From: Tubulanus polymorphus
Taxonomy: Eukaryota; Nemertea; Palaeonemertea; Tubulaniformes; Tubulanidae
Direction of reading: 5' to 3'
Assembly: GCF_964204645.1 (NCBI RefSeq)
Contig: NC_134033.1
Coordinates: forward strand, 14,448,155-14,512,154
DNA length: 64,000 bases
The position numbers and the translations under genes are program-made. The notes beneath the pieces were generated by a model, which made no database searches, had not been told where the DNA came from, and saw only the letters and a list, made by a program, of their open reading frames with translations. Below are positions 24,101-51,651 of this stretch, piece after piece. How positions within the stretch are numbered: the stretch's first letter is position 1; every line of letters starts with the position of its first letter.

Positions 24101-27100
24101 TGGTTTTCCGTGATGGTGTCCCTTCTGAGGTATCATATTTTTTACTGGATGATGTCCATGATGTCCTGGTTTTCCGTGATGGTGTCCCTTGTGAGGCATC
24201 ATATGTTTTTCTGGATGATGTTCATAATGTCCTGGTTTTCCGTGATGGTGTCCCTTGTGAGGCTTCATATGTTTTTCTGGATGATGTCCATGATGTCCTG
24301 GTTTTCCGTGATGGTGTCCCTTGTGAGGCATCATATGTTTTTCTGGATGATGTCCATGATGTCCTGGTTTTCCGTGATGGTGTCCCTTGTGAGGCATCAT
24401 ATGTTTTTCTGGATGATGCCAATGATGTCCTGGTTTTCCGTGATGGTGTCCCTTGTGAGGAATCGTATGCTTTTCTGGATGATGTCCATGATGTCCTGGT
24501 TTTCCGTGATGGTGTCCCTTGTGAGGCATCATATGTTTTTCTGGATGATGTCCATGATGTCCCGGTTTTCCGGGATGGTGTCCCTTGTGAGGCCTCATAT
24601 GTTTTTCTGGATGATGTCCATGATGTCCCGGCTTTCCGTGATGGTGTCCCTTGTGAGGCCTCATATGTTTTTCTGGATGATGTCCATGACGTCCTGGTTT
24701 TCCGTGATGGTGTCCCTTGTGAGGCCTCATATGTTTTTCTGGATGATGTCCATGATGTCCTGGTTTTCCGGGATGGTGTCCCTTGTGAGGCATCATATGT
24801 TTTTCTGGATGATGTCCATGATGTCCTGGTTTTCCGGGATGGTGTCCCTTGTGAGGCCTCATATGTTTTTCTGGATGATGTCCATGACGTCCTGGTTTTC
24901 CGTGATGGTGTCCCTTGTGAGGCCTCATATGTTTTTCTGGATGGTGTCCATGATGTCCTGGTTTTCCGTGATGGTGTCCCTTGTGAGGCCTCATATGTTT
25001 TTCTGGATGATGTCCATGATGTCCTGGTTTTCCGTGATGGTGTCCCTTGTGAGGCATCATATTTTTTACTGGATGATGTCCATGATGTCCTGGTTTTCCG
25101 TGATGGTGTCCCTTGTGAGGCATCATATGTTTTTCAGGATGATGTCCATGATGTCCTGGTTTTCCGTGATGGTGTCCCTTGTGAGGCATCAAATGTTTTT
25201 CTGGATGATGTCGATGATGTCCTGGTTTTCCGGGATGGTGTCCCTTCTGAGGCATCATATGTTTTTCTGGATGATGTCCATGATGTCCTGGTTTTCCGTG
25301 AAGGTGTCCCTTGTGAGGCATCATATTTTTTACTGGATGATGTCCATGATGTCCTGGTTTTCCGTGATGGTGTCCCTTGTGAGGCATCATATGTTTTTCT
25401 GGATGATGTCCATGATGTCCTGGTTTTCCGTGATGGTGTCCCTTGTGAGGCATCATATGTTTTTCTGGATGATGTCCATGATGTCCTGGTTTTCCGTGAT
25501 GGTGTCCCTTGTGAGGCATCATATGTTTTTCTGGATGATGTCCATGATGTCCTGGTTTTCCGTGATGGTGTCCCTTGTGAGGCATCATATGTTTTTCTGG
25601 ATGATGTCCATTATGTCCGTGATGGCCTGGTTTTCTGTGGGTCTTGAGAGGCTTCATATGTTTTCCTGGAAGATGGTCATGATGTCCGTGATGTCCTGGT
25701 TTTCGATGACGATGTGCCTTTTGAGGCTTCATATGTTTTCCTGGATGATGTTCATGCTGCTCTGGTTGTGTATGATGGTAACCTTGCTTTCTAGGATTTT
25801 TTTTCGGTGGCCTATTAAATGAAGTTATCGGCAGTTTTGATGCAGGGGATAGAATGGGTCCGATTAACCGTGTTGGTCTTTCAACACGGGGCTGTGTCAG
25901 CTGAGCACTAGATGAAGGTACCGGAGCGGGAGCGTTTGACTTGTGCCTTGCACCAGGATGTTCTGATGGTCCATGCCCTTTTCCTAGTGGCTTCTTACCT
26001 TGTGGTTTTGCAGCAGGCTTCTTTGTCTCCTGCCCCTTTGGTTGAGGCTTCCTACCTTCTGGTTTCTTAGTCTCGGTTGGTTTCGGTTGTAGCCCCGCAC
26101 CAGGCAGCTGCATTGTTTCATGTATCTTTGGTTGAGGCTCTCTACCAACCGGTCTCCTAATTTCAGGTCTATTTGGTTGTGGCTTAGCACCAGGGGGCTT
26201 CCTTATTTCATGCCTCCTTTGTTTTTTCTTCATGCTAACAGGTTTCTTAGTTTTAGGTTTTGACTTCTCACCAGGTGGCTTCCGTGTTTTATGCCCCTTC
26301 TGTTGAAGTGTCGTACCGCTAGGCTTCTTTGTTTCGGGTCCATTTGGCTGTGGCCTCGCACCATGTGTCTTCATTATTTTTGGCCTCTTTGGTTGTTTTT
26401 TCGGTTTCTCAGCTTTAGGTTTTGACTTCGCACCAGGTGGCTTCCGTGTTTTATGACCATCTGCTTGTTTTCTCGTTTCAGGTACATTTGGTTGCTGTTT
26501 CATACCTGGAGATTTATTTGTTTTACGCCCACGTGGAGGCTTCGTAGCGTGTGCATACGAGGGTGGCTTGATCGGTCGTACAGTGACTGGTGCAGTTTTA
26601 TACCAAGGATATCGCGGTGACCAGTACGGGTAGTTGGGGTATGGTCCTATTGATTGCCTGTAAACTGGTTCACCGTTATAACCAATCAAAGGTTTGCCAC
26701 CTCGGTCGATTAGGGGACGGATCGGATACCCGCTAGAGCTGTAAATCATCCTACCGTTTGGACCTCGCACGAAATCACGCCATGGCATTCCGGGCCATGT
26801 TGGATTATCGTTGTTTCGATATCCCCGTTGGAGGGGATATCTCGGTGAAAACCGAAAATATCGTTGTTGTCTAAAGAAGGGTTCATATCTACTTGATGGA
26901 GACATCGGATACCATCGATCGCCGGGACTTCCATAATTCTTAGGAAAGTGATCTTCTGGAAGCCTTTTCGGAACAGGCTTTCTACGTTTATCGTTCGGAT
27001 TTTCTTCCCCGGCGCAATTGAATATTTTGTCCCTCACGAATGCCGGATTCTGGGCGTTACCAGCAGTCATTGTGACAAATCTATCACCAAAGAAGTCAAT

Positions 27101-28570
27101 ATCTTTAATCGGCTTATGCTTACCGATGAGGACGATTGTCACACCGAGACGTTTCAACACAGCCAATTCGTGCGAGCCTAAGTAATTATGTTTGACATCA
27201 CTGGTGAAAATAACGACATACTTGCGCGCGCCAGCTCTACCGTATCGCTTAAACATTACCCCTGCCTGGTTGTGTAATGAAGAAAGAAAATTGAGCGTAA
27301 AGGACTCGACAAGGCATATGGTCAAATATTCAAAATCATCTAGAACTGTTATGTATTTGTATAAATCTGTCTATTCAATAGTTCAATAATGTGTGTCATC
27401 ACACTTCTGATCTAAGAGGCAGAAAACAATGTAGTTTAATACAGCATTAGACAATCTCAACGTCATTTTGATTACAATAAGTTAAATCATCAGCGTGAAA
27501 GCTCCATTTCTTTGACTTTCACAATGCAGTTATGCCTCTTACTAAGGTATATACATATTTGTAATCCTTCCGATATATATGATGTCACGGTTCTGTGATA
27601 TACAGACCTGATAGAGACTCTCTTGAAGTCCGACCTGTTCAAATGGTGACGAACGCACGACGCACCATGCTGAAATCCGCTTAATAGCGCGGCGTAGGTC
27701 ACCCATACATCCGAACTCATTCATAGAGAATTCAACCTATAAAACATTTAAATTTCAACTAATAAGCAATCATATTTCGATCGGAAATTGAGGTGCAGCA
27801 GTTGACGATTAGTCCATAGGTTTCTCTGTCCCGATGACCTCACCCATACAGTGAGAGATATGGAAGTCACGAACGATGCTATGATTGGTTTAGCGATGGA
27901 AGTCAGATTTCCAGTTATTTTCAGTTTCACCTCATACTTACAGTAGGTTTGTAGGTGTATCTCATTACACCGATCCGCACGGTATCTTCATCTTCACCGG
28001 CGTTTACCGACTTCAACAGCGCGTTCGCCACATCCCGCAAGCTACCCGACATTCCCTGTGTCCCGCATCGAGCATCTTTTATAAACACTATATCTGCTTT
28101 GTAATCAGCCGGACAGCCATCTATTGATAAATAAGAAAATAATTTAGAAATGGAATAAGAATTGCATAAGCGTACGAAGTCAAACGAATAAAACATTTAG
28201 TGTTTGGAAGAGGCCCACCCTATATGCTGTCTTCGTATCGCATGGCTTTATCTAACATTCGCTGCTCTAGAAGGCAGTGACTACTGGAAAAGTGTGTTCG
28301 TTCATCTCTTAATACTGCGAAGAAACTAACCATAGACATCTACCATTCATTAAATAGGAAAAACAGAAAAATCAATGGATAGCTCATCTGTTATTAACAA
28401 TCAACTATTATTGTTGTACTGCACTGAATCTATGCTCTTATGGTTTACGTATTTTGTGGGCTATCGTAAAGATTATCTACGTCATTCGATCTAAACACTA
28501 ACTTACCATCGGCGATGATCAGTTGGTAATTCCAGACAACTGCCAACACGAAGAATAGTGTGGACGGCAT
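21137..28570 (-). CDS. Secreted VWA-domain protein with giant His-rich and Gly/Lys-rich repeats
   Basis: Coding exons (minus): 28570-28507, 28120-27942, 27736-27635, 27265-21137; phases agree and give about 2157 residues. Exon 1 is a signal peptide. A von Willebrand A domain follows (about 24-202: CPADYKADIVFI near its start, VEFS and LRRAIKRI in the middle, KYVVIFTSD later), but its metal site reads DARCG instead of DxSxS. Next come an aromatic/Pro-rich linker, a Pro/Lys-rich repeat region (about 350-600; KKPxGxKPQP-like), about 42 copies of a 22-residue His-rich unit starting GHHGHHPEKHMMPHK (about 640-1577), nine or ten copies of a 32-residue Gly/Lys unit containing KGYKIGGVKGLGYK (about 1670-1963), and a Gly/Ser/Trp-rich tail. 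High His suggests metal binding or pH-dependent cross-linking in an extracellular structural material (inference). An acceptor at 28589 and a donor at 28733 suggest a noncoding 5' exon. The exon 3 donor (27634) is the least certain border. Confidence 0.85.
21720..22600 (-). repeat. 96-bp coding tandem repeats (Gly/Lys unit)
   Basis: Nine to ten copies of a 96-bp unit, in frame in the VWA gene, encode a 32-residue Gly/Lys/Tyr-rich repeat. Units differ mainly at a few codons (GRKG/RRKG, GGGGS/SGGAS), suggesting recent homogenisation by unequal exchange. Confidence 0.9.
22880..25690 (-). repeat. 66-bp coding tandem repeats (His-rich unit), about 42 copies
   Basis: The 66-bp unit encodes 22 residues, roughly 40% His. 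Variants (PEKHMMPHK, PEKHMRPHK, PVKNMIPQK) recur in blocks, so higher-order duplications of several units took place; a block with the short unit KGHGHHPEKH occurs twice (about 23340 and 23720). Because 66 is divisible by 3, two antisense frames are also open over about 2.7-3 kb. Confidence 0.95.
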
Positions 28571-32927: not shown

Positions 32928-33502
32928 TTACTTCCGTTTAGCTGCTTCTGCCTTTCGTCTTTCAATCTCTTCTTTTTCCGCTTTGCCTACAGATACGTAG
33001 AAAGAACAAATATTTCGATATTTTTACCACATCAAGTCGGGCATGATTCCTATCGATGGGTCTCTACATTCAGTGAAGGATTCATTTTCTATCTAATTGT
33101 GGGTGTAAGATTAGGATTGTTCGACATACATAATTTTCCTCATATTTCCTTCTGGCATTTTCCCCTGGCATTTTTACCTATGGCGTGAATTTTCCTTTGG
33201 CATTTTTACCTCTCGCATTTTTACTTCTGGCATTATTGCCTATGGCATTTTTACCTCTGGATTCACAGGGTCCAGTTCCACCGTTCTGAGTTATATGACT
33301 TTTAACTCAGAGTTAACTTGAACTCACAGCTGTGGAACTGGATCCAGTTGATTTTGTTGTATATCATAGTTTTAAACTTACTCAGCGGCTTATCCGCGCG
33401 ATAAACGTCACTTGCCGGTTGTGACGTCATTCCAACTGCCATAGTAAGAGCGGTGCCATCTTGCGGTGGTCTTTGATCGGGCTGTTCTTGTTTTTCAGAC
33501 AT
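32928..33502 (-). CDS. Tiny K/E-tailed protein, member of the small-gene cluster (two exons)
   Basis: Exons 33502-33382 and 32986-32928 (minus), phase 1, encode 59 residues from MSEKQEQ; an in-frame ATG at 33532 would add ten, but it lies too close to the TATA-like box at about 33545-33552. Exon 1 ends SDVYRADKPL and the split Ser; exon 2 reads AEKEEIERRK and ends in a basic helix, AAKRK. The same junction (IYRTSKPL, then TEAEKELIRQQ) occurs in the plus-strand gene at 50.7 kb, so the two are homologous. There is no signal peptide, so it is probably intracellular. A perfect palindromic double octamer lies upstream. Function unknown. Confidence 0.65.
33140..33258. repeat. Minisatellite of ggcatttttacct-type units
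   Basis: Seven or so imperfect copies of a 17-19-bp unit (ggcatttttacctctgg and variants). Confidence 0.75.
33269..33346. mobile_element. CCCAGTTCCACAG-family MITE
   Basis: Termini ggtccagttccac and gtggaactggatcc are inverted, and the interior has inverted ttaactcagagttaact. It lies in the intron of the 32.9-33.5 kb gene. Confidence 0.65.
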
Positions 33503-33544
33503 CGGTGTATCGACTGGCGATTCGAAAGACAAAAAAGGCGTATT

Positions 33545-33587
33545 GTATATACAGAATAGTATGCGATTGCGATTTGCATATGCAAAT
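33545..33587 (-). promoter_or_regulatory. Double octamer plus TATA-like box
   Basis: ATTTGCATATGCAAAT at 33572-33587 is two POU octamers fused into a perfect 16-bp palindrome. About 20 bp closer to the gene is tgtatatac (33545-33552). The same octamer/TATA order precedes the other cluster members. Confidence 0.6.
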
Positions 33588-33930
33588 GAGCCAGCATACG
33601 ACCATATTCAACAGTTATCGATCAGGAAATTCACCAAAAAATGAAAACACAAATAAATCTTAATCTTCCTAATATTATTTTCAGATGTTAGAATAAACTA
33701 CGCATTAATCAATTAAACAGGAGTGTTATTTCTGATTATTCAACAATAAATCTAAATCGTTAATTGGAGAATATGTTGATTTAAAGGCATGGACAATTTT
33801 CAAATGAGATATCTATGTTCATTTTCACCGGATCAATGCGTTACATTAATGTAAGCCATAACGATATGAATACAACAGTAAATATTCAGTCGACATTGTA
33901 AAAAAACATCAAAATTATATTTATACTTCC

Positions 33931-34022
33931 GGATCCAGTTCCACAGTTGTGAGTCAGAGTTAATTCTGAGTTAAAATCAGTTCATTTTCAATGACTTAAC
34001 TCATAGCTGTGGAACTGGGTCC
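33931..34022. mobile_element. CCCAGTTCCACAG-family MITE
   Basis: Termini ggatccagttccacag and ctgtggaactgggtcc are inverted. The interior gagttaattctgagttaa is palindromic and followed by attttcaatga, the family hallmark. Confidence 0.7.
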
Positions 34023-35249
34023 TGGCGATCTATTCACATAAGTATTTCAGGTCGCACAATGATTAGGTAAAACGGGATAGTGAAACGTTCTCACGGATTT
34101 CTATTCAGTCGATAGATTATACATTTTCTTTCGCATGTTATCGATTTACAATTTTTATCTCGATAGCAAATACGCACCAGGCGTCTATTTGCATAACAAG
34201 GGTCTCTAGTGTTCTGTGAATTATTTTGCGCTCATTTTCACCGAACGTGTCGGAACACGGCTAAATGTTATGACTGCGAGTAGGGCGTTTATATGTGCGC
34301 GATAGTGACGCGGCGAACCGCACCACTAAAACTCAGTACTACTTCGTATGGAAACTTGCACTTTCTGGTTTACATTCCCCGAAGAGACTATAACCCTGTA
34401 ACTACCATATGTTTCAATGCAACATCGGATAGTTTTAACTCGTGCAATCGTGTCGTAGTTGTGCGCATTCGTATTTGCGATAGTTTCTTGGAATTTAATT
34501 CATTCGTAAACAAGTAAGTTCATTTCTTTTTTTTGTATCATAGGGCAGCCCTGAAGGTCGTATGACATAATAAAGCCGTAAACTTCGGTTTTCACGCAAG
34601 TCAGCCATTTTGTGTAACAGGTGTTGACGAATTTAGAGCACGAAGAAACTTTTTACGTTAGTTTAATTAATTTCTGGTCCTGAAACAGAATTCATACATA
34701 ATTTATGGCTCACCTGCTGTTTCCGATATGGCTGTCGTTCGGTTAAGTTTTGATCGTGGCAATGTCGGCTCGTGACGTGGACCCTTCAAATCTAGGACAC
34801 ATTAATATCACGTGATGCAAAAATTCCAGACTACAACAGTTTCATATTGCGAAATAATATCCGAAACGAACTAAACAGAACAAAGGATTTTGATATGAAG
34901 AATTATTTCATCATTTTAATTTCAATTTCCTTAGTTATTTCTACCATTCAAGCGGTTACAGTGATTATTTATTACTATATCAAATTTAACAAAATTATTG
35001 GAAACTATCGGGCACTAGAAAATCGTCACAACCGACGGATAGTTCGTTGTATCCAGGAAAGAAATGTCTTGAACTTTTTAATTTGGTTTAAATTCTGAGA
35101 TTGTTATATCCAATCGTCGTATACAAGTTCTTCGTTGCAATGTTTAAGTATAGGAATCCTTGTGGAATCACTCCATAAAAATCAAAACTTCATATCATTT
35201 TTCACTAAATCCAACACCAACTATCGTGGACGTGCTTTCATTTCGCTTA
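34023..35249. other. Gap between cluster genes
   Basis: Holds an isolated octamer ATTTGCAT at 34193-34200 without a recognised gene next to it, and from about 34840 a copy of the duplicated spacer block (gaaac...aaacagaacaaa...gatatgaag) that also occurs near 36480, 38090, 40070 and 43950. The small open frames here match this spacer and look noncoding. Confidence 0.45.
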
Positions 35250-35926
35250 TCTGAAAATACAGTTATGAAAATTAATCAAATGCAGTTGAATCTTGAAACT
35301 ACAAAAAACTCTACTTGGTGCAGGGAAAATATCATCGTTCGCAAAATAACATTAATCCCAATTTTTCCACTAAGGCATATTATTTCTAGACGATAAGGTT
35401 TAGATCAGTTTTTTTTTTGTTTCGGCTCCTAGAATGATATCACGATGCAATCTCGGATATATCTATCTATAACTTCGTTCGTAAATCGAATGAATGAAAA
35501 GGCAGCGGTAATCTCCTAACGAGGTAAAAATGTAACTTCGCTTTAAACGACATTGTCTTTTTAAGGTAGCAAAATATTTCGAATTATCAGTACGACATTG
35601 TTTGATACGGATGAAATCTTCTGAAAGAGCTATCTAGATAAAAAGTGCACCCACCAACGACGATTTGCATCAAAACCGGGAATATTTGAATCTTTAATCC
35701 CTACATTGTAACCGCGGATTCTTCCGCAGAAACAGGTGACGATCAGAATGTTTCGTTGACGGTAGTACCAGTCAAGACTTCCATACGAACATTGTGGCGA
35801 ATGTTCTTCGTCGATGTCGTTCCGATACAACCAACAGTAACATGCTCTGTAAAAACGTCCACCTTTCTGCCAATAATGGCATGCATCGTGGTAATGGTCT
35901 TCGCGTCGATAGCCGGTGGGTAACAT
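35250..35926 (-). CDS. Small Cys-rich cluster protein with tail lost at the splice junction
   Basis: Exon 1 (35926-35655, 272 nt) is the same length as exon 1 of its neighbour at 37.5 kb. It encodes MLPTGYRREDHYHDAC at the start, a Cys-rich middle (YRACYCW, VTCFCGRIRG) and the family motif KDSNIPGFDANRR. The donor is gtgggt. The homologous exon 2 begins at 35250, but the codon formed across the junction is TGA, and further stops follow in the remnant that still shows the DSWC core. The product would be 90 residues without the CaaX tail of its paralogue. No signal peptide. Function unknown; CxC pairs could bind metal. Confidence 0.6.
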
Positions 35927-35997
35927 TTTCGTAAAATCGGTGACAATATTTGCTCAAAGAAACTTCTTGAATGCAATTCCAAGTTTCCCACTTGGCA

Positions 35998-36042
35998 ATT
36001 TATAGTCAACACAAAAGAAAGAAGACGTGTCTTTATTTGCAT
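35998..36042 (-). promoter_or_regulatory. TATA box and POU octamer of the 35.9 kb gene
   Basis: TATAAAT reads at 36004-35998 on the minus strand, 72 bp before the ATG, with ATTTGCAT at 36035-36042. The layout is the same, nearly base for base, in front of the 37.5 kb gene. Confidence 0.7.
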
Positions 36043-36857
36043 ATTGCGTACTCACGCCCTTTTCAGTTATTCTTAGTTCGGCGGAAAACCCTTCGTTTTC
36101 TTGCGCAAAGCTTTATTAAAGCGAGAAAATTTTGACAATAATTCGTTCTAAAAAATACTTTAAGAAATTTTCACGATTCGTAGTTTTAAAAATCATCGTC
36201 TATCTTCGACAATTGTATCGAATTAATTTTCAATATGATATTTCATGCGATCTTCAATTTTTATTCGTCAAAAAACATAACATTTATAGTCACCGTTCTC
36301 AAAATTCCCAGTTCTTCTCAATGACTAATTTTAATATGATATTTCGTGTGATCTTTAATCTTGATTCGTCAAAGAATCATAAAATCTGTCGCCGTTCCCA
36401 GTTCCTCTCACCAAAGACGACATTGACTTCAGAAATGGGAATAATCACGTCAGCGGATTCCTGCACAATAGCATTTCATAGCCAAGATCCGAAACAAACA
36501 AAACAGAACAAAACCCTTCGATATAAAGAGTTAATTCATCACTTTAATCTGATTTCAATTTTCTTCGTTATTTCACTACACATTTTAAGCAATAACATTG
36601 ATTCTTTATTACGATATTAAGCTATTAAGATAAAATTACTAGAGAAACTATGGGACATTAGAAAATCTGTTCCTTATAACCGATAGTTCGTCGTATCCGG
36701 AAAAGAATTGTCTGGAACTTTAAATTCTAAGCTTGTTGTATCAGATTAATCGTTATGTCCAATAAGCATCCACGGCAAGTTCTTCATTACAATTCGAAAG
36801 TATCGGAATCCTAGTAGAATCACTCCATAAGAATAAAAATATTAATATCAGAATTGT
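36043..36857. other. Duplicated spacer between cluster genes
   Basis: Contains blocks that recur between other members: ttagttcggcggaaaaccc next to the promoter, the aaacagaacaaaaccc spacer block near 36500, and the 3' flank (cgatagttcgtcgtatcc, ggaatccta) at 36690-36830. No coding gene is seen; these repeats mark the units of tandem duplication. Confidence 0.5.
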
Positions 36858-37552
36858 TCACAAAATCCGACACCAACTATCATCGTCGTTCCTTCTTTCC
36901 GCTTCTCTGAAAATATATTTATGAAAATAATTAGATACAGTTGACTCTTGAAACTGCCAGGAAATCTATTTGGGTGGGCGAAAATATTAGTGTTCTCGGA
37001 CATTATTCCGCACTTTCCTCTAATGTATACCATTTCCACATGAGAATTTCCTCTGGATTCCATTTATAAATTTGTTTATAAAATAAATGTGGCGGGATCA
37101 CCAAAAAGACAGTACAGATGCAACTGCGCTCTAAACTAAATCGTCGTTAAAGTTTCGACAATAATTCTAACCATCAATAAAGCATAGTTCGACACGGTTG
37201 AAAAACATTTGGCAAAATTGTGTCGATTGTTTCGATTTATTTAAACTATCAACGTTCTATCAGCTCCCAGCATCACTCACCTATTACGGCATACATCTAT
37301 GTTGGGCAGATTTGATTCCCTATGCTGATGGTAATGACCACGGATCCGTCCACAGTAACAGGTGACGATGAGACGATATTTACCTTCATGGATGTAGTAT
37401 TTTCCATGCAAACATTTTGGGCCGTGTTTCTCGCGATTCACAATTTCACGCGAAGAATCGCAACAGCATTTTCTGTAAAAATACTTGCATTGTCTCCAAT
37501 AACGGCATCGATTATTATAATGCTCCTCGCGTCGAGAACCGGTGGCAGACAT
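36858..37552 (-). CDS. Small Cys-rich protein with C-terminal CaaX-like motif
   Basis: Exons 37552-37281 and 36906-36858 (minus), phase 2, give 106 residues. It starts MSATGSRREEHYNNRC, continues with a run of aromatic, basic and Cys residues (YFYRKCCCD), then VTCYCGRIRG and the motif RESNLPNIDVCR. Exon 2 encodes EAERRNDDDSWCRIL and a stop: the last four residues, CRIL, fit a CaaX box with terminal Leu, the form usually geranylgeranylated. No signal peptide, so the protein may be cytosolic and lipid-anchored (inference). Close paralogue of the 35.9 kb gene. Family not recognised. Confidence 0.68.
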
Positions 37553-37624
37553 TTTTCGTAAAATCAGTGGTAAGATTTGCTACAAGAAACTTCTCGAATG
37601 CAACTCCGAGTGTCCCGCCTGGCA

Positions 37625-37665
37625 ATTTATAGTCAACACGAAACACGACGTGTCCTTATTTGCAT
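37625..37665 (-). promoter_or_regulatory. TATA box and POU octamer of the 37.5 kb gene
   Basis: TATAAAT at 37631-37625 (minus) and ATTTGCAT at 37658-37665, spaced as in the 35.9 kb paralogue. Confidence 0.7.
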
Positions 37666-38432
37666 ATTGCGCCCTTTCAGTTATTCTTAGGTCGGTGGAA
37701 AAACCCTCGATTTCTTACGCAACTTTTTTATGAAAAAGCGAGAGAATTTTGACAATAATTCCTTTAAAAAAATACTTTTAGAAATTTCTGCGATTTGTAG
37801 ATTTAAATCATCGTCTATCCTCGAAAGATTGTATCGAATTAATTTCATTCAATCAATTCTAGTATGATATTTCATGTCATCTTTAATCTTAATTCGTCAA
37901 AAAACATTACATTTATAGTGACCGTTCTCAAAATTCCCAGTTCCTCTCAATGACTGGGATATACATCAAAAATGGGAGTATTTGACGTCCCCTGTCGTAT
38001 TATTGCTACTGTTGCTACTTTGACTAGATTTTTTTTTTACAATCATTATTCGAATTCCTTGCGCTCAACACAAAAACAGTTTCAGATTTCGAAATGGATC
38101 AGAAACGACAAACAAACCACCAAAGAAATACTTTTAAGCCTTAAATTAAGTATTAATAGATAATTTTATTCTTTTCTTCTCTTAAACTATTTCAGTGGAA
38201 CCTCGTTACATTGAATTCCAGTGCAGAAAAAAATCTGTGCTTTTTAAGTGATTATTCGTCGATAGTTCGTCGCATTCGGTATGGAATTAACTAAATTTTC
38301 TATCTTGGGATGAAGTCGTATGGCCGTAATGTCCGATAAATCGTTTTATTCAATAGTTATATGCAATATTTATATCCAAGTTCGTCAAAAGTAGGTTTCA
38401 CTGTAGAATTAGAGAGAATACATCGGAATTCC
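37666..38432. other. Duplicated spacer between cluster genes
   Basis: Carries the recurrent spacer words (cctgtcgtattattgctact, acaatcattattcgaattcc, cgatagttcgtcgcattc, gtttcactgtagaatt) also present near 39980, 40810, 43850 and 44110. No coding gene is seen. Confidence 0.5.
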
Positions 38433-39303
38433 TTACAGCACACTGCACCAACCACTTAACCAATCGCTGTCTTCTTCTTCTGCCATTTCTTTCCTTTTCA
38501 TTTCCCTTTCTTTTGCCTTTTCTGCCTCCTCGTCCCTGAACATAAACACATAGAAATAAATCAAACGCGGTTAATAACTAAATCTGTGAGACGTCTAAGT
38601 ATTTGGCTGGGTGACACGGTGGTGAAGTTCCTTAACCAGTGGTTAAATCATTTATCCACTGGTTAGCCTCTTTTTCATTCGCCCAGCCTCACTTTGAAAT
38701 TAATCACTCATATGATTAAAATGGAGTCGGTTTTGATTGATATCGACAAAAAATTTTTTTCAAACCAATTTAACAGAACAAATTTCAACGTTATTAAAAC
38801 TTGGCTGAAAGGTGATATTCTAGCGTGACTTCTATCCGTGACTCCTCGCATAAAAGTTCAGCTATAAAGTTTATCCGATCTCTTTCAAAACGCAATCTTT
38901 CTCTTAAACATTCATCCGAAAATTTATTTAGATGCTCGAATCGATTAACTCTGTCAAGCCAAATGCAGGCAATAAAAACTACGTCGGCCATTTTAACCAC
39001 TGGTTGAGAACTTAACATAACCCTATAGGTCGTTTAACTTTAACCGATGGTTGGACAATTAAACCATAGGTTAAATTTTTGAGCAACCCAATCTAACCAA
39101 CGGTTAAGAGTTTAACCTGGCTTTGAGCAACCGCCAGCCCCTCGTGTTCAAATGTGCACTCACCTCACCGCACGATCCGTAGGCAATGCATCATAAGTAG
39201 CAACATTTGAAGGCTTAATCTCGTTGTTACTTTTCGGTTTTGGGGTCTCACTATCCAAATTCGAATGGGGTTTTACTCTCAGTTGAGAACTGTTGGAAGA
39301 CAT
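38433..39303 (-). CDS. Small charged protein ending in CSVL, two exons
   Basis: Exons 39303-39164 and 38535-38433 (minus), phase 2, encode 80 residues. The N-terminal half is polar and Lys/Pro-rich (TPKPKSNNEIKPSNVATYD, the family motif), then ALPTDRAVR to the junction. Exon 2 begins DEEAEKAKEREMKRKE, a likely charged helix, and ends SDWLSGWCSVL. CSVL is a plausible CaaX (geranylgeranyl-type) box, and the final WLSGWCSVL is shared exactly with the 41 kb gene. No Cys-rich middle, no signal peptide. The intron carries a Harbinger-like insertion. A near-identical first exon occurs at 45.0 kb. Confidence 0.68.
38603..39150. mobile_element. Harbinger-like element in an intron
   Basis: Ends carry related, inverted ggctgg-type termini and repeated TTAACC...GGTTAA palindromes. 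The interior holds a transposase-like fragment. A deleted relative lies at 44.7 kb, in the equivalent intron of the paralogous gene. Confidence 0.5.
38794..39018 (-). pseudogene. HARBI1/PIF-Harbinger transposase N-terminal fragment
   Basis: A 74-codon frame with SDECLRERLRFERDRINFIA, resembling the conserved N-terminal helix of HARBI1-type nucleases (SDExxxxRYRFSRxxI). The catalytic DDE part is absent, so it cannot be a working transposase. Identified by pattern only. Confidence 0.45.
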
Positions 39304-39368
39304 TTCCGTAAACTTCGATGGCAACTTGGGATCAGCTCGAATTCAGAAATGTCCAACATGAACATTAT

Positions 39369-39401
39369 ATTTATAGTCAGCGAAAGAATCGATATTTACA
39401 T
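39369..39401 (-). promoter_or_regulatory. TATA box and degenerate octamer of the 39.3 kb gene
   Basis: TATAAAT at 39375-39369 (minus), 66 bp from the ATG, with ATTTACAT (one mismatch to the octamer) at 39394-39401. Confidence 0.55.
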
Positions 39402-39769
39402 GATAATTGAATAGACATTTGCGCCATTGGCTAATAAATTTAATGTATTACCTACCACGCCCCTTCGAGTGATTTATAGCTCAACGAAAAAAAAACAACT
39501 TCAATGAATTAAGAAAAAAAGTTCGTTTAAGAATTTAGAACATTTTCATCATAGATTTCATAAGATCTACAATGGTCGTGTATCTTTGATACTGGTCTTA
39601 AATTGATTTTCTCTCGAAATCAAAATCCTTTTGCCCAAAATGATTTACTCCTTTTCTCTTTGTATATCGCAAAAAGAAAGCGATATATTTTCGGTTATCT
39701 ATTTTAGCATTCGACAGCCTCCGAAATCGATCGGTGCTGACGATTCTAAACAGACTACTCGCCATACTT

Positions 39770-39900
39770 GTGGGGAAAACATCGGTTAGAATTGTGCTAA
39801 ACCGGTGGCACTACCCAACATTCGCAATGAATTCTAGTCGTTTTTCGACCCGCGTAACAATAATCTTACATCATCGCTCTAAACTCTTTAACAGTGAACT
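39770..39900 (-). pseudogene. Relic of a 42.3 kb-type Cys-rich cluster gene
   Basis: On the minus strand the codons for TVKEF, CYAGRKTTRI and HCEC are recognisable and match the second half of the 42.1-42.3 kb gene (TAKECW, CCYAGLKTIRI, NCEC), but an in-frame stop follows the first piece and the 5' part is missing. Confidence 0.6.
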
Positions 39901-40243
39901 TTGTGAAGTCTTTCTGAAAAAATATCGCTTTCTTATCGATAACACATTCCCTTTATTCGAAGCCGAATCTCCTCAATGCGTCTCCTGTCGTATCGTTGCT
40001 ACTGTGACAAGATTTTTGTTTACAATCATTATTCGAATTCCGAGTTTTGCACTACACACAAAAACAGACTGTTTCGGATTGCGAAATGAGATCAGAAACG
40101 ACCAAGAAACAGAAAAAAAAAATACTTTTACGGCTTAAATGAAGTGTTAATTGAACATTTCATTTTTCAATCATTTTCATCTTTTTTTAAGCGATTGGTT
40201 ACAATGTTTGTTCATTCCAATACAATTATCATTAACTAACCTA

Positions 40244-40732
40244 TTATTTATTTTTGATTGTCCACGAACTTTTTGGGATATTTCGCTTAATTTTGGGTGC
40301 GCATACCTCAAATATGTCTTAATCGAATCAGTAGAGTTGTGCAGTCAAGATGAATCATCGTTTTTATATCCATTTTGTTCCGAGTTGGCCTATGATAGCG
40401 CAACCATTGCGGCCGTGCCCGCGTAGTGAAACACGTGCGAGCAATGTACTCTCCCCATAGAAAATAAACTTACCCAGGTCACATGGTACACACTGCTCAT
40501 TAGCATAAAGAAGTAAACAAACTGGAACAAAATGGCGGTCTCTCTTGCCGATTTAAAGCTCAATTTTCGAGAATATCAATCCTTCAACTCGGAACAAAAT
40601 GGATATAAGAACGATGATTTATCTGGACTGCACAACTCTGCTGTCTGCTGGTTCGATTAAGACATATTTGAGGTATGCACACCCAAAATTAAGCGAAATA
40701 TCCCAAAAAGATCGTGGACAATCAAAAATAAA
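40244..40732. mobile_element. Long inverted-repeat (foldback) element
   Basis: Arms of about 150 bp (40244-40395 and 40570-40732) are complementary over most of their length, beginning tttattttt gattgtccacga and including ctcaaatatgtcttaatcga and attttgttccgagttg. The middle, about 180 bp, is not repeated. It lies between duplicated spacer segments just downstream of the 41 kb gene. Confidence 0.7.
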
Positions 40733-40958
40733 TAGACTTTAGAATTAAACTATTTCAGTGGAACCTCGTTACAGAGTGCCCCAGAAAATGTGTGCTTTAT
40801 TATTCGTCGATAGTTCGTCGCATTCAGCATAGAATTAACTAAATTGTCTTTCATGGGTTGAAGTCGTATAAATCGTTACATCCAATAGTTACATGCAATC
40901 ATGAAGTTCGTCAAAACCAGGTTTCACTGTAGAATCAGAGAGAATACATCGGAATTCC

Positions 40959-41506
40959 TTACAGCACACTGCACCAACCACTTAACCAACCACCATAACC
41001 GCCTTTTCTTCCCCGTCCTCTGAAAATATACATATAGAAATAAATTGAACGCGGTTAATCATTAAGTCTGCGGGTGACAATATGATATGTGGCTGGCAGA
41101 TGTTATCCACCATTTCGATTTATAACCAATCATTCATAACTAAAAAAGCTAAAAAAAATTGATACCTTGTTTCTCCTTTCTGCTGAGCTTAAAAGTTGAT
41201 ACTTTTTTCTTAAATTATGATCAAGACATACAATAAGAGACCCGGCAGCTATTGAAACGACCCTGTCTATGGAGATATGACAACAATTCCATCCTATATT
41301 TGTCCTCGTAAAATAGTTTCATGTACGAAAGACTTTTGAAGAAATTGAATCTGGATTTGTTAAGATGATCAAAAGCGCACTCACCGATAACGAGCTACAT
41401 CCCAACTTGGAATATTTGAAGGCTTAATCCGCATAAGACTGCGGGAAACGTTATTAATCTGATGGATCACACGATTCCACTCTGTATTGTTACCGTTGGA
41501 AGGCAT
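40959..41506 (-). CDS. Very small protein with RG/GY-rich tail ending CSVL, two exons
   Basis: Exons 41506-41385 and 41019-40959 (minus), phase 2, encode only 60 residues. Exon 1 starts MPSNGNNTEWNRVIHQINN and ends with the family motif IKPSNIPSWDVARYR. Exon 2 encodes RGRKGGYGGWLSGWCSVL and stop, with the same CaaX-like ending as the 38.4 kb gene. The ATG at 41506 was preferred to an in-frame ATG at 41578, which would sit almost on the TATA-like box. The intron contains a GTTTCTC-family MITE fragment. No signal peptide. Function unknown. Confidence 0.65.
41155..41290. mobile_element. GTTTCTC-family MITE, partial (copy 3)
   Basis: Begins gataccttgtttctcctttc and contains ctgctgagcttaaaagttga and acccggcagctattgaaacg. 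The second end is truncated. Confidence 0.55.
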
Positions 41507-41582
41507 TTTATTTTCCGTAAATTCGATGGCGAGATTCGTTAAGGGCAGTTTAAATTCAAAAACCTCCGCTCTGGACATTCAT

Positions 41583-41617
41583 ATTCATACGTACGCAGCA
41601 AAGACCGATATTTGCAT
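41583..41617 (-). promoter_or_regulatory. Octamer and TATA-like sequence of the 41.5 kb gene
   Basis: ATTTGCAT at 41610-41617 and a degenerate TATGAAT at 41589-41583 (minus), about 80 bp before the chosen ATG. Confidence 0.5.
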
Positions 41618-42066
41618 AACTATGAGCGAAGAAATCGTGTATTCGCGCTATTTGCTGGTGAACTAATTTATTATTATATATTCACATTCCTTCGAGTTAT
41701 TTATAGTTCGACGGAAAACCCGACGGAATCACGAAACATCGCAAAAAAGTCATAAAAGAGTGGATTTAGAAATAGTTCGTTCAAGAACAACGAACATTTT
41801 CACCACAGATTTCATAAGATCTATAATTGTCATGTATATTTGATACTATTGTATTGAATCGATTTTCACTTGGAATTCATCCTATTTCAACACTCCGCGC
41901 ATCCGAGAATAGTGACATTCAAAGAATTATTTGACCAGAAATATTTGTCCACTTTTTTTGTTTCAAAATCGCATCAAGAATGATAATTTTGGTTATTTGT
42001 TTTATTCGATTGGCGCTGACGATTCTAAGGAGAACACGAATTTCGTCTGAAAACTTACCATTTTTT

Positions 42067-42330
42067 CTATTTGCGATAAGTGTCGGCAGTAGGAAGGTTA
42101 GAACTACGCTGATCCGGTGACACTACCCCACATTCGCAATTAATTCTAATCGTTTTTAGTCCCGCGTAACAACAATCAAGCGTCGTCGCCCAACACTCTT
42201 TCGCAGTATGATTCTGCTGGCCGTTTGGATATTTCTGATATTCGCAACAAGTTGAAGTACATTGTGTAATCAATCTGCCGTTCTTCGTTTCAAACGAGCA
42301 TTCTTTCTCGTGTGTGAAATTGTTCTTCAT
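42067..42330 (-). CDS. Small Cys-rich cluster protein without CaaX tail
   Basis: An 87-residue frame. Cys pattern: KECSFE, ITQC, TCCEYQKYP, KECW, DCCYAGLKTIRINCECG, then the family motif RSSNLPTADTYRK and a stop. A strong donor (gtaagt, 42058-42057) follows the stop by about 7 nt, at the place where other members splice to the tail exon, so here the tail has become untranslated. The stop is too close to the junction to be expected to trigger nonsense-mediated decay. No signal peptide. Sister gene at 43.0 kb; decayed copies at 45.6 and 39.8 kb. Confidence 0.65.
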   Translation of the reverse strand: MKNNFTHEKECSFETKNGRLITQCTSTCCEYQKYPNGQQNHTAKECWATTLDCCYAGLKTIRINCECGVVSPDQRSSNLPTADTYRK

Positions 42331-42389
42331 TTTGTCAAACCAATATTCAACTGAACTCGATATTCGTCCTCACATTGCCGTATTCAATT

Positions 42390-42480
42390 CAATGCATTGC
42401 AGAGGACAATGTTGATTGGTTATTTTCAATCACGTGACAGCTATTGGAATGGATACCATTTAACCAATCGCCTTTATAAA
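42390..42480 (-). promoter_or_regulatory. Promoter block shared with the 43 kb gene (CCAAT and CACGTG)
   Basis: gttgattgg, then cacgtgacagctattgg, are shared with gttgattgg...ctcgtgacagctcttgg at 43160-43205. On the gene strand these are inverted CCAAT boxes flanking a CACGTG/CACGAG site. A TATAAA lies at 42474-42480, but rather far from the ATG. Confidence 0.4.
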
Positions 42481-42827
42481 TCGCGCCATTCAGACGAGTT
42501 TTTTATCATTTAAACCTTTGTATGGTGAAAAACTATATTCGTTCAGAGTTCCTCAAATTCCAAATATTTACAATCAAATTCCTTATATTTTCACTCGACC
42601 TGGGCTTAACTTTCTTTTCATATATCTTCAAAAACTGCAATTAACTTAGAACTACGACGGGTATTTTTACCGGACTTTTTGCCGATTGCTTTTTGTTCCA
42701 AATGATATATTTCAACTGAATGAATATCGGTAGATTTATTCAAATGTTTAATCGCATTCACTTCGTCAAATTCAATCGATCCTGACCATACTAAAAAGGA
42801 CCTCATTCTCGCCAACTACTTACCTTA

Positions 42828-43079
42828 TTATTTTCTGATTTGATCAAAAACAGGCAGGTTGGAATTCCGCACTTCGCTCCCGGTCCATTTCCCACATACA
42901 CAATTAATTTTCATCGTTTTGTCTACCCCGTTGGTATATTTCACCTCTGCCAGACAATACTTATCATTATGAGTTAGAACATCCGGATATTTTCTAAATT
43001 CATCACAACTTTGATCACATTGTTGCACCAATTTGTCGCCCTTCCTTTCGAACGAGCACGCATTTGAGTGAACGGACAT
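42828..43079 (-). CDS. Small Cys-rich cluster protein without CaaX tail (sister copy)
   Basis: An 83-residue frame: SNACSFERKGDKLVQQCDQS, CDEFRKYP, KYCLAEV, KTMKINCVCGKWTG, then the motif RNSNLPVFDQIRK and a stop. A gtaagt donor lies 4 nt after the stop, as in the 42.3 kb sister. TATATATA at 43131-43138 lies about 55 bp before the ATG. The shared KINCxCG, SNLP and RK ending place it in the family; no known domain is recognised and there is no signal peptide. Confidence 0.65.
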   Translation of the reverse strand: MSVHSNACSFERKGDKLVQQCDQSCDEFRKYPDVLTHNDKYCLAEVKYTNGVDKTMKINCVCGKWTGSEVRNSNLPVFDQIRK

Positions 43080-43597
43080 TTTGCTTGGTCAATCGAAAGT
43101 TTACCCGAATATTTGCGAATATTCGCCTGATATATATAGGCAAATTTGATGCATCGCGAGTGGCGTTGATTGGCCAATGTTTTATCTCGTGACAGCTCTT
43201 GGCCTACTAATTGATAAGATTTATCACCCATAAAACTGAAAACCAGTGCTCTACTTCAAGTCGAAATAGAATTCTTTATTTGCACTCGGTGTGCACTCGA
43301 TTTTCCATTCATTTAAGAAATTGCTATCAATTTCCTTTTTCAAAGAACATCTATTCGTTAGACGAATGTTTAAAGCGCGTTTGTTTTACCTAATTAGGTT
43401 TTGCATCAGAGATGAAAGACCTACGAGTATTTGCCGTACAGTTCTGCTAGTTTCTTGTTTTGAAAACGATTCATTCCAAATTTGTTTTAAATAATTCCCT
43501 CAAACCACTGAGCGCCATGCAGGGCATTATTAGCAGTTTAGGTGTTATTTTTTCCCAATGGGGAGAGACCAGAGAATAACTTTCGACCAAGAAATTC

Positions 43598-43682
43598 TGT
43601 CGCCGCCAGGGTTGAACCTATAAACCCTGGATTGACGAGACCAGCGATCGGTGGCTTAAACCACCCTGCCACTGCGCCTCAA
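43598..43682 (-). repeat. tRNA-derived SINE-like fragment
   Basis: On the minus strand it reads ggcgcagtggcagggtggtt, then taggttcaaccctgg, i.e. a tRNA-like A-box region and B box at about tRNA spacing, without a folding anticodon arm. Probably a SINE head. Confidence 0.45.
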
Positions 43683-43739
43683 AAAGTAATTATCAGTATA
43701 TTCAAGTATTTGATATTTCTTCTCTGGCAGACCTTTTTG

Positions 43740-44282
43740 ATGATATCTTTGTGAAGGTTTTTTTCGGGGCGTTTTGAAAATTATCGTTTTCTTATCGATA
43801 GCACTTTCCCTTAATTCGTAGTCGAATCTCCTCATTGCGTCTCCTGTCGTGATGTTGCTAATGTTGCTACTGTGACTAGATTTTTGTTTACAATCATTAT
43901 TCGAATTACAAGTTTTGCGCTCCACATAGAAACAGTTTCAGATTGCGAAATGAGATCAGAAACGACCAATAAACCGAAAAAATACTTTTAAGGCTTAAAT
44001 TAAGTATTAATTGATCATTTTATTCTTTTTTCTCTTAAACTATTTCAACCTCGGAACCTCGTTACAATGAACGTGCACCAGAAAATCTGTGATTTATAAG
44101 CGATTATTCGTCGATAGTTCTTCGCATTCATTATAGAATCAACTAATTTGTCTTTCTTGGGATGAAGTCCTAAGTCCGTAATGTCCGATAAATCGTTATA
44201 TCCAAAAGTTACATGCAATCATGAAGTTCGTCAGGTTTCACTGTAGAATCAGAGAGCATACATCGGAATTCCTTACAATTCG
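43740..44282. other. Duplicated spacer between cluster genes
   Basis: Shows the recurrent spacer blocks (cttatcgata, cctgtcgtgatgttgct, acaatcattattcgaatt, gagatcagaaacgacca, cgatagttcttcgcattc, gtttcactgtagaatc) in the same order as at 39920-40130 and 40800-40940. No coding gene is seen. Confidence 0.5.
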
Positions 44283-45001
44283 TTATTTTTTAGACCACCA
44301 ACCTCCACCACTGCCTTTTTCTTCTGGCTTCTCTACCGGATCCCTGAACATAAACGTATGAAAATAAATCAAGACTCGTTACTGATTCTCTCAGTGGGAC
44401 TCAATTCGGCTGGGTGTCTGAATATGATATAATCGTTCGCAGACACGTTATCCCCCATCTCGATTTATAACTATAATTCATAACTAATGCAATAAATCGA
44501 AAATCATGAAATGAAACTGTGCTTGAAACGACCGTGTCTGACAACAATTTCAACCATAAGTTCGAGTTTGCCTTCTCGTAAAATAGTTGATACGGATGAG
44601 AAATTATACGGACTAATTCAGATTTTCAAACGCGCACTCACCTCCGATATACATCATTACCGCCAATATTTGAAGGCTTAATCTTTATATCACTACGGGG
44701 TTCTCGGGTTTAGGCAATTTAACCATCGGTTAAATTTTTGAGCAACCCGATCTAACCGACGGTTAAAAAGCTTAACGGTCGGTTGGGGATTAAACCAACG
44801 GTTAAGAGTTTAACCTGGCTTCGAGCAACCGCCGGTCCCTCATGTTCAAATGTACACTCACCTCATCGCACGATCCGTAGGCAATGCATCATAAGTAGCA
44901 ACATTTGAAGGCTTAATCTCGTTGTTACTTTTGGGTTTTGGGGTCTGACTATCCAAATAATCATGGCGTTTCACTTCCTTTAGATGACTGTTGGAAGACA
45001 T
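44283..45001 (-). CDS. Small cluster protein, apparent hybrid gene with Trp/Lys ending
   Basis: Exons 45001-44862 and 44343-44283 (minus), phase 2, encode 66 residues. Exon 1 is 140 nt, as in the 39.3 kb paralogue, and very similar (TPKPKSNNEIKPSNVATYD, ALPTDRAMR). Exon 2 encodes DPVEKPEEKGSGGGWWSKK and stop; it resembles the RG/GY tail of the 41 kb gene but the WCSVL end is replaced, so no CaaX box. A relic first exon of another member lies inside the intron, so exon 2 probably belonged to that gene. The octamer/TATA promoter is present. Function unknown. Confidence 0.62.
44642..44704 (-). pseudogene. Relic first-exon end of a cluster gene (SNIGGNDVYRR)
   Basis: The minus strand encodes KIKPSNIGGNDVYRR followed by gtgagtgcgc, matching the end of exon 1 and the intron start of the 41 kb gene (IKPSNIPSWDVARYR, gtgagtgcgc). 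Its 5' part is replaced by the Harbinger-like repeat. Confidence 0.65.
44710..44850. mobile_element. Deleted Harbinger-like element copy
   Basis: Shares ttaaatttttgagcaaccc, ggttaagagtttaacctggc and gagcaaccgcc with 39060-39140 and sits at the same distance from the exon 1 donor of the paralogous gene. The transposase fragment is missing. Confidence 0.55.
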
Positions 45002-45098
45002 TTCCGTAAAATTTCGATGGATAGTTTCGATGCTATGAGTGACTAGAATTCAATTTGAAATCAGCTTGAATTCAGAAACTTCCAATCTGACCATAAAG

Positions 45099-45131
45099 TT
45101 ATAAAGTCAGCGTAAGAGCCGATATTTGCAT
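45099..45131 (-). promoter_or_regulatory. TATA-like box and POU octamer of the 45.0 kb gene
   Basis: TTTATAA at 45105-45099 (minus) and ATTTGCAT at 45124-45131, the same spacing as in the other members. Confidence 0.6.
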
Positions 45132-45544
45132 AATTGGATAGACATGTCTTCGCGTCATTTGCTGATAGATTAATGCATTACTAGTCACGCCCCCTTCGAG
45201 TTAGAGCTCAACGGAAAAACCAAAAACCAAAATATTTGATTGAACTAAGAAAAAAGTTCGTTCAAGAATTTAGAACATTTTCATCATAGACTTCATAAAA
45301 TCTATAATTGTCGTATATCTTTGATACTTGTCTTGAATTGATTTTCTATCGAAATTAAAATCCTTTTGACCAAAATGATTTATTTACTTTTTGCATCAAA
45401 ATCGCAAAAATAATGCGATACATTTTCGATTATTTATTTCAGCAATCGACAGCCTCCGAAATCGATCGGTGCTGACGATTCTAAACAGACTACTTTATCT
45501 GCGGGGAAAACGTCGTATAAGTAGGACGGTTAGAATTGTGCCTA

Positions 45545-45747
45545 ACCGGTAGCACTACCCCAATTCTAATCTTTTTTAGCCCCGCGTAACAGCAATTTTA
45601 CATCATCGCGCAAAACTCTTTAACAGTATGTCTCTGCGGGTCGTGTGGATACTTCTGATATTCGTAACAAGTTGGAATACATTCTATTATCAACCTATCG
45701 TTTTTCCTTTCAAACAAGCCTTATTTCCTGTGTTTGAAATCGGTCAT
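45545..45747 (-). pseudogene. Pseudogene of the 42.3 kb Cys-rich gene
   Basis: The minus strand still encodes RLIIEC, CYEYQKYPHDPQRHTVKEFC and NCCYAGLKKIRI in the order of the 42.3 kb gene (RLITQC, CCEYQKYPNG, HTAKECW, DCCYAGLKTIRI), but has in-frame stops after the first few codons and before NCCY, and has lost the CxCG segment. Confidence 0.75.
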
Positions 45748-45865
45748 TTTGTTTGTGTAAAACTACTGGCCGTGTTTGCACCGCATGTATGTCTACATAC
45801 GTGGCGATTTTTCCGTGAAAAAAACTTTCCTTAATCGCGAGCTTGTTTAGATACTGACCATTTAC

Positions 45866-46128
45866 GTACGATATTTTCGTGTCGCGTCTGTCGTCGGTAG
45901 GTTGCTTCCACCTGTTATACGATCATCCCCTTTTATCACATCACAATAGCAGAAAATCAGCGTTTTACGGTCACGTTTTATGAATTGGCAATCTGTTCTG
46001 AAATGTTCTTGCGCGTAATTCTTCCCTCCGCAGTTACAGAGCAGTGTTAGAACGCGTCTCGTATCGATTCGCCACTTGTGCCTGCAGCTTGGACCGTGCA
46101 ATTCGGTTTTAACACCGGTAATAGGCAT
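45866..46128 (-). CDS. Small Cys-rich cluster protein, first exon only identified
   Basis: Exon 1 46128-45866 (263 nt, phase 2) ends at a gtaaat donor. The chosen start MPITGVKTELHGPSC matches MSATGSRREEHYNNRC and MLPTGYRREDHYHDAC of the paralogues; an upstream ATG at 46167 lies within about 10 bp of a TATAAAA-like box. The body has LLCNCGG, a Cys before the basic stretch, LIFCYCDVIKGDD and the family motif GGSNLPTTDATRKYR. I could not find its second exon with confidence, so the C-terminus is unknown. Confidence 0.6.
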
Positions 46129-46199
46129 GTTTTCGTTTTGATAAATCTGAAATGCCGGTGCATTCATTGTTTTATATTTTCTGTATTTCTACGAAAAGA

Positions 46200-50728: not shown

Positions 50729-51651
50729 ATGTCTCCGACGGAAAAACGGATCGCCAGTGAGTCTAGTACGAATACGAATAAGAAGTCATCGAGAACGTCA
50801 GAAATGCAGCCGTCTACTAGATCTCAAACGAGTACGACATCGATGCGTCCTAGACCCAGAGATACACCTCCGCAGTTTGTATTGGACAATGAAAGCTTAG
50901 CTTTGACATTCGCGACAGCGTTGACTTCACCGGTCTGCACCAGTATATACAGGACAAGTAAGCCTTTAAGTGAGTAAAGCTTTGAAAATTAACTCTGAAC
51001 TCGAATTGAATACTTCAACAATTCAGTCTTATATTAAATCGATTGAAGAGTTTATTCTCATTTGCATGACCCCAAAAGAAGAATAAGTCATTTATTGTCG
51101 TATACCGCATTGTTCATGGGCATTTAATTTTGAATATTCTATCGAACTAAAAGTAGAAAATTAAACACTGACTAATCTGAACAACCGTAATCTTCGGTTA
51201 ATTGACTGGTGGTATACAGTTGACTGGTTATCGATTGGATTTCTGAAAATCAAAACCACATGCAATGAGTAAATCAAATACAATGTATAGTGCATATTAG
51301 GGTCCTGGCAATAAGAAAAATATGAAACATTTGTTAGTTTATTCCAAAACACTCTGAATGTCTGAATCCTGGAGTGATTCTCTGAAACGTATCTTTTTTC
51401 ATTTCTTTTTAATTCTTTTGTTGGTTTTTTAAAGGTTTTTCCGTAAAATCCAGGGTACGAGGTTGGTAAACATCTTTGTGAATGTAAATATGCTCTCATT
51501 TTCAGCCGAGGCAGAAAAAGAACTTATCCGACAGCAACGTGTGCGGTTTGAGAAAAAGGCGAAACGAAAAAGAAAACAGCGCAGGAAATCTGAAAAGTCA
51601 GACGTTAGTAAATCAAACGCTGGAGATGACAATTTACGGAAATTGAAGTGA
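50729..51651 (+). CDS. Small Ser/Thr-rich basic-tailed protein, distant member of the cluster family
   Basis: Exons 50729-50969 and 51506-51651, phase 1, encode 128 residues. The first part is Ser/Thr/Arg-rich and probably disordered; exon 1 ends SIYRTSKPL and exon 2 begins TEAEKELIRQQRVRFEKK followed by a run of Lys/Arg (AKRKRKQRRKSEKS) that could be a nuclear-localisation or nucleic-acid-binding tail. The junction matches VYRADKPL / KAEKEEIERRK of the 33 kb gene with the same intron phase, which supports homology. An acceptor (cttgtag) lies 6 bp before the ATG, implying a noncoding exon upstream. Function unknown. Confidence 0.62.

Follow-up and report, generated by a model that had tools for sequence, protein, structure and literature searches.

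A tandem cluster of short genes was examined in a 64,000-nucleotide stretch of the genome of the nemertean Tubulanus polymorphus (C9:14448155-14512154 of the 267.8 Mb, 77-contig genome; hereafter the window). The cluster lies on the minus strand from 46,128 to 34,860 and comprises eight short genes with open frames (A to F, H and I) and three decayed pieces. It may encode a tandem family of small intracellular adaptors that carry a putative zinc module and/or a membrane anchor and share a docking motif, an interpretation to which we give slightly less than an even chance. If the parts work as proposed, the cluster would be a compact natural case of a new gene family arising and gaining new cellular addresses; as neighbours with one docking motif would have exchanged body and anchor, and copies in decay still lie among them, the origin of orphan genes would become testable at one locus. 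The paired hairpin body may represent a zinc fold without a described relative, and should zinc and prenylation both fail, what is left would be an ordinary orphan family.

The shared motif and gene structures

A six-frame scan identified SN[LIV]xxxD in the eight minus-strand open-frame genes, from 46,128 to 35,654. The full ending D-x2-R is present in six of the eight (A, B, D, E, F and I), and C and H carry SNVATYD without D-x-x-R. An earlier interpretation of this DNA made from its letters (the sequence-only reading) had described at least eight short genes or exons on one strand sharing the motif, and the eight open-frame genes together with fragment G, all on the minus strand, bear this out. 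It had assigned the D-x-x-R ending to the whole set, which is too broad by C and H, and had placed the motif at the end of exon 1, as it is in the two-exon genes; in E and F the motif forms the C-terminus of a single-exon gene.

The strict motif, with D-x-x-R, has eight matches in the 11.4 kb cluster and nine in the whole window, against a mean of 0.06 and a maximum of 1 in 200 first-order Markov simulations. The cluster matches are those in A, B, D, E, F and I, one in fragment G and one at 43859, which is taken as non-genic. The codon for the motif Ser varies (TCA, TCT, TCC or AGC), as do the Leu/Ile and Pro codons, with the residues kept. The 50 kb on either side of the window held no further match to the strict motif or the module described below, and the only similarity there consists of two low-complexity matches, with stops, to exon 2 of C.

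Donors GTGAGT in phase 2 with matching acceptors are present in B, C, D and H, and a donor-like GTAAGT follows the stop codon 8 bases on in E and 4 bases on in F. The donor of A is weaker, and use of the homologous donor would create a TGA at the splice junction. Gene I starts with M-x-x-T-G, likewise A and B, and has a further in-frame ATG at 46167. Stretches with many repeats like AACCGWTGGTTAA were noticed by eye in the H intron (44700-44830) and the C intron (39010-39140), next to fragment G.

The cysteine-rich body

The bodies of A, B, E, F and I all follow the pattern H-x3-4-C-x8-19-C-x1-3-C-x7-13-H-x3-4-C-x8-19-C-x-C, that is, two H-x3-4-C..C-x1-3-C units (HCCC modules) with eight putative metal ligands and the two histidines in register. 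Among the 277 open reading frames (ORFs) of at least 60 codons in the window the double pattern occurs in just these five proteins, and it is likewise confined to them in the 164 kb around. AlphaFold models based on the five-sequence alignment gave two hairpins (8-13/16-24 and 42-49/53-64) and a four-residue helix with F placed first, and two hairpins (10-14/17-26 and 39-47/51-59) with A placed first; in both of these low-confidence models the hairpins sit where the modules predict them. Aligned by profile, the two halves of the body gave P 0.0043 at an hhalign probability of only 7.9%. The ligand pattern suggests that each HCCC hairpin module probably holds one zinc ion.

The same ligand order, together with the basic isoelectric point of the Cys-rich members (8.1-9.3), could indicate nuclear regulators with TAZ-like modules for binding nucleic acid or a transcription partner, the CaaL ends then being fortuitous. 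TAZ2 holds three zinc ions bound by HCCC motifs (PMC12022988). The TAZ-type domains of CBP/p300 resemble the cluster proteins in the H..C..C..C order, in having several modules in tandem and in being intracellular. The first module of F (H-x3-C-x12-C-x3-C) comes near the TAZ1 spacing. However, no Pfam zinc family was matched, and TAZ (PF02135) was absent even at E up to 10; the cluster models (mean predicted local distance difference test score, pLDDT, 47.8, hence low in confidence) are mainly beta hairpins, whereas TAZ domains are helical bundles; the cluster has a C-x-C spacing; and the CaaL ending is kept across B and C/D. A nuclear role is considered unlikely.

The second-exon tail

The second exon ends in W-C-R-I-L in B, in W-C-S-V-L in C and D and in WWSKK in H, and the tail of A is broken, so that a CaaL box closes three of the four two-exon genes with open tails (B, C and D). 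The features of a CaaX ending (Cys fourth from the end, aliphatic a2, Leu at X) were found in 3 of the 8 proteins, namely B (CRIL) and C and D (CSVL), and not in A, E, F, H or I. Seven of the 18 bases that encode W-C-a-a-L-stop differ between B and C/D. Since the changes at Cys, Leu and stop are synonymous, Ile and Val are swapped and the residue class changes at a1 only, the pattern fits selection for the CaaL box. The tails of B, C and D are predicted to be prenylated.

In a yeast reporter for geranylgeranyltransferase-I, five C-x-x-L ends without a branched-chain a1 supported growth, and CSVL and CRIL are absent from the text of that report (PMC11304957). C and D are similar to G-protein gamma subunits and Rho GTPases in being short and ending in C-a-a-L, and differ from them in lacking a Pfam match to G-gamma or a GTPase and in that the ending is optional within the family.

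An 11-residue hydropathy scan, run without a dedicated signal-peptide predictor, detected an N-terminal hydrophobic stretch in none of the eight proteins; the best mean for a segment starting in the first 25 residues was 0.54.

Coding evidence and selection

In a codon-conservation permutation test, none of 500 permutations reached the observed score in seven of nine pairs (z 3.6-6.7). These seven are all the pairs that were tested within the group of A, B, E, F and I, and their changed codons are far more conservative than permuted columns. The ratio of nonsynonymous to synonymous differences per site (pN/pS) is 0.65 for A/B, 0.76 for E/F, 0.71 for E/I, 0.85 for A/E and 0.68 for B/E, and the 95% bootstrap interval excludes 1 in A/B, E/I and B/E. 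Because the motif codons vary while the residues stay and seven of the nine pairs show this coding signal, at least the Cys-rich members are protein genes. For C, D and H, whose first exons measure 140, 122 and 140 bases and second exons 103, 61 and 61 bases, the exon lengths differ by multiples of three and the intron phase is constant, which is a better sign of coding than pN/pS.

Promoters, flanks and duplication history

The duplication of promoters, introns and 3' flanks among the units, as claimed in the sequence-only reading, was confirmed. Its contrast between the other halves of the proteins holds for the Cys-rich and the charged bodies and not for the DNA around them, since both kinds share promoter and 3' DNA. 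An upstream region is common to A, B, C, D and H. The exact octamer ATGCAAAT lies before the ATG by 109 bp in A, 106 bp in B, 104 bp in D and 123 bp in H, C carries ATGTAAAT, and TATAAAT is present upstream of A, B and C. The DNA upstream of E and F is of CCAAT type with no octamer nearby. The octamer, with the TATA element, suggests control by a POU factor. Structured RNA genes, which octamer promoters had suggested, were also considered; a sub-threshold U6atac match (22.2 of 33 bits, E 0.047) and small nucleolar RNA matches in the cluster were taken as chance.

A and B are identical at 87% of 386 aligned bases upstream, 60% of 284 in exon 1, 66% of 317 in the intron and 75% of 344 in the 3' flank. 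Exon 1 differs from the promoter (p 8e-16) and from the 3' flank (8e-5), and does not differ from the intron (p 0.11). The rapid diversification put forward earlier is therefore visible in exon 1 relative to the promoter; as the intron has diverged to about the same extent, accelerated coding change alone is an insufficient explanation. Conversion may have made the flanks uniform without reaching exon and intron; alternatively, the promoter may be under constraint. The block pattern spans 34856-37955, with about 60-66% identity over exon 1 and intron and 75-80% downstream.

The A/B divergence brings to mind small secreted disulfide-rich peptides of the host-defence type, as found in many tandem Cys-rich families; in the trappin genes of armadillo, cow and pig, coding regions also evolved faster than introns and flanks (PMC2831891). 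The cluster resembles such families in its tandem copies, in having six or more cysteines per protein and in coding DNA that is more diverged than promoter and 3' flank. It differs in that divergence is similar in the intron and in exon 1, and in the lack of a signal peptide, no N-terminal hydrophobic segment being present in any of the eight proteins. With conserved TATA and octamer elements close to the ATG, A and B would hardly have space for a signal exon further upstream, two histidines are in register in each of the five bodies, and B joins the Cys-rich body to a CaaL end, an ending used in the cytosol. Secretion is regarded as quite improbable.

Synonymous divergence (dS) is 0.09 for C/H and at least 0.69 for the other pairs computed (A/B 1.04). 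Most copies therefore look old, and the youth ascribed to the family in the sequence-only reading is doubtful.

The shared 3' flank is an old dispersed miniature inverted-repeat transposable element (MITE). It begins some 25-30 bases past the stop codon of D. Besides the units of C and H, a 216-base query recovered seven loci beyond the window, at 69-73% identity; inverted ends near CAGTGGAACCTCGTTA are present in the three copies inspected of those seven. The element presumably resembles pogo-type elements. On the 3' side of the D unit, 40245-40734 is a foldback of 490 bp that matches its own reverse complement at 72%.

Searches for relatives

No Pfam family was found above cut-off for the cluster proteins in two scans (hmmscan with the five full Cys-rich proteins and trimmed A, E and F, E up to 10), and searches of PDB sequences with cluster proteins gave nothing significant (best E 0.13 in one), in agreement with the earlier statement that no described family is recognisable. 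Among the papers listed in literature searches on small prenylated, zinc or cysteine-rich orphan families, none was seen to describe this one. Among PHROGs, four weak families of one member each were matched (best E 0.027), and phages searched with exon 1 of B gave no match. A search of bacterial and archaeal contigs with F as the only query yielded one candidate, L048, which has a stop inside the match and is taken as chance.

The whole 268 Mb genome was searched with seven protein queries (A, B, C, D, E, F and I; H was not used) at E 0.001 for F and E 5 for the others, and convincing matches were found only in this window. Outside it, B gave four weak matches (best E 0.077, all with stops) and A gave one (E 0.38, 39 residues, no stop). 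Query B recovered A and not E, F or I, so that the search is insensitive to distant paralogues and the finding of a single locus extends no further than to relatives with about 40% identity or higher.

The many dispersed coding copies that a transposable element would leave were not seen in these searches, coding and promoter queries matching convincingly only this locus. A transposon origin of the genes was rejected, as only the 3' flank is dispersed. The genes might still be duplicates that are decaying or have no function, with frames open by accident and possibly a transposable element as the agent of their spread: 3 of the 11 pieces are decayed, the second exon of A is broken, the 3' flank is a MITE, and C/H and C/D are without clear constraint. 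Set against this are the coding-constraint tests on the Cys-rich genes and the restriction of promoter and coding matches to this locus, from which it follows that the MITE did not spread the genes; this explanation is very improbable.

Proposed organisation of the family

We propose that the cluster is a tandem family shaped by birth and death, whose small intracellular proteins are assembled from three exchangeable parts. The first, present in A, B, E, F and I, would be the body with its two H-x3-4-C-(beta hairpin)-C-x1-3-C modules, the second the short docking motif S-N-[LI]-P-x2-D-x2-R, and the third the second-exon tail with a CaaL prenylation box acting as membrane anchor (B, C and D). 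B would combine all three; E, F, I and probably A would be soluble forms with zinc body and docking motif; C and D would be membrane-anchored forms without the zinc body; and H would be a motif segment without CaaL. A common intracellular partner may be bound by the motif, with specificity set by the zinc body, and presence or absence of the tail would then hold the partner at the membrane or in the cytosol. As in taxonomically restricted orphan families, the proteins are short, have few exons and no recognised domain, and were found at one locus; unlike orphan families generally, the cluster swaps parts, namely a body rich in ligands, a motif and a tail that is likely to be a lipid anchor. 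A more specific version is rather unlikely: an undescribed paired-hairpin HCCC zinc domain, the common docking motif and an optional geranylgeranyl anchor would have been combined in one lineage by exon-level shuffling within the cluster, giving soluble and membrane-tethered competitors for one partner, with the flanking genes J and K ancestral to the array.

Several observations count against the proposal. The body pattern, in which the C-x1-3-C spacing is loose, was written after the sequences had been seen, and its counts in 20,000 shuffles of each protein (A 0, B 4, E 0, F 0, I 0) are not an independent test. Mean pLDDT is 47.8 in both AlphaFold models, and a fold search with a low-confidence model gave 139 matches, none of which reached E 0.001; the listed matches, mostly to proteins like immunoglobulins and those of the major histocompatibility complex, are taken as meaningless. 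H lacks CaaL, and in A it is broken. As the final 30 bases of the frame do not differ between C and D, support for the box amounts to one independent comparison, B versus C/D. The pN/pS intervals of E/F and A/E include 1, and without the shared Cys/His codons the ratio rises to 0.76 for A/B, 0.82 for E/F, 0.79 for E/I, 0.91 for A/E and 0.75 for B/E. The selection between copies to which the sequence-only reading had looked is thus evident in the Cys-rich pairs (below 1 in five, clearly so in three) and not in C/H (1.36) or C/D (1.05), where the intervals are wide and 134 and 10 of 500 permutations, respectively, reach the observed score, giving no clear coding signal. The common partner is pure inference.

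Feature inventory, flanking genes and other features of the window

Table 1. Features of the cluster and its flanking genes in window coordinates; the last column gives the position of the motif Ser.
Feature	Position	Strand	Description	Motif Ser
A exon 1	35654..35926	-	Cys-rich, end SNIPGFDANRR	35689
A downstream exon remnant	35208-35252	-	broken in the frame of B
B exon 1	37281..37552	-	two HCCC modules, SNLPNIDVCR, donor GTGAGT	37315
B exon 2	36858..36906	-	..EAERRNDDDSWCRIL, stop; CaaL-type C-terminus
C exon 1	39164..39303	-	short charged body, SNVATYD	39210
C exon 2	38433..38535	-	charged stretch, WLSGWCSVL, stop (CaaL)
D exon 1	41385..41506	-	short body, SNIPSWDVAR	41419
D exon 2	40959..41019	-	GRGRKGGYGGWLSGWCSVL, stop (CaaL)
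E	42067..42330	-	single exon, two HCCC modules, C-terminus SNLPTADTYRK, stop	42102
F	42828..43079	-	single exon, two HCCC modules, C-terminus SNLPVFDQIRK, stop	42863
H exon 1	44862..45001	-	protein 81% identical to C	44908
H exon 2	44283..44343	-	DPVEKPEEKGSGGGWWSKK, stop; without CaaX box
I	45862..46128	-	two HCCC modules, SNLPTTDATRKYRT, stop	45906
Fragment G	44640..44709	-	exon-1 end KIKPSNIGGNDVYRR and donor, between H exon 1 and H exon 2	44673
Pseudogene E'	45508..45741	-	E-like, two TAA stops
Pseudogene fragment E''	39785..39895	-	E-like, TAG and TAA
Octamer, A promoter	36035..36042	-	ATGCAAAT; same site at 37658 (B), 41610 (D), 45124 (H)
3' flank of D	40747..40935	-	MITE-derived; matched in the units of C and H, with greater divergence in A and B; dispersed copies elsewhere
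J	32928..33502	-	exons 33502-33382 and 32986-32928, 59 residues; adjoins cluster, left
K	50729..51651	+	exons 50729-50969 and 51506-51651; opposite side of cluster, right

The left edge of the cluster had earlier been set at 32,928, which is the stop codon of J, a gene not clearly homologous to the cluster. J and K are homologues that share ALTxAxxxTS...YRxxKPLxxAEKExI (E 2e-10 for the pair) and the same phase-1 intron. J carries only P-x2-D-x2-R of the motif (in the piece PASDVYR) and, 70 bp before the ATG, a paired octamer. J and K might be related to the cluster or have founded it, but their alignment with the SN-motif genes is weak and the intron phase is different. Pfam gave no match above cut-off for J or K, and PDB none for K (J was not searched).

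Of ten neighbouring ORFs, five have Pfam matches above cut-off (two rhodopsin-type receptors, carboxylesterase pieces, a VWD exon and an EGF exon), with weaker matches besides. The only Rfam match in the window at gathering score is a transfer RNA at 9309-9381. An open frame of 2,077 codons on the minus strand (21140-27370), without a Pfam match, consists mostly of 96-bp (about 9 copies) and 66-bp (about 43 copies) tandem repeats and is in parts open in other frames too, and a large inverted array of TTCGACTTATTAAGTCGAAA units occupies 2367-2728.

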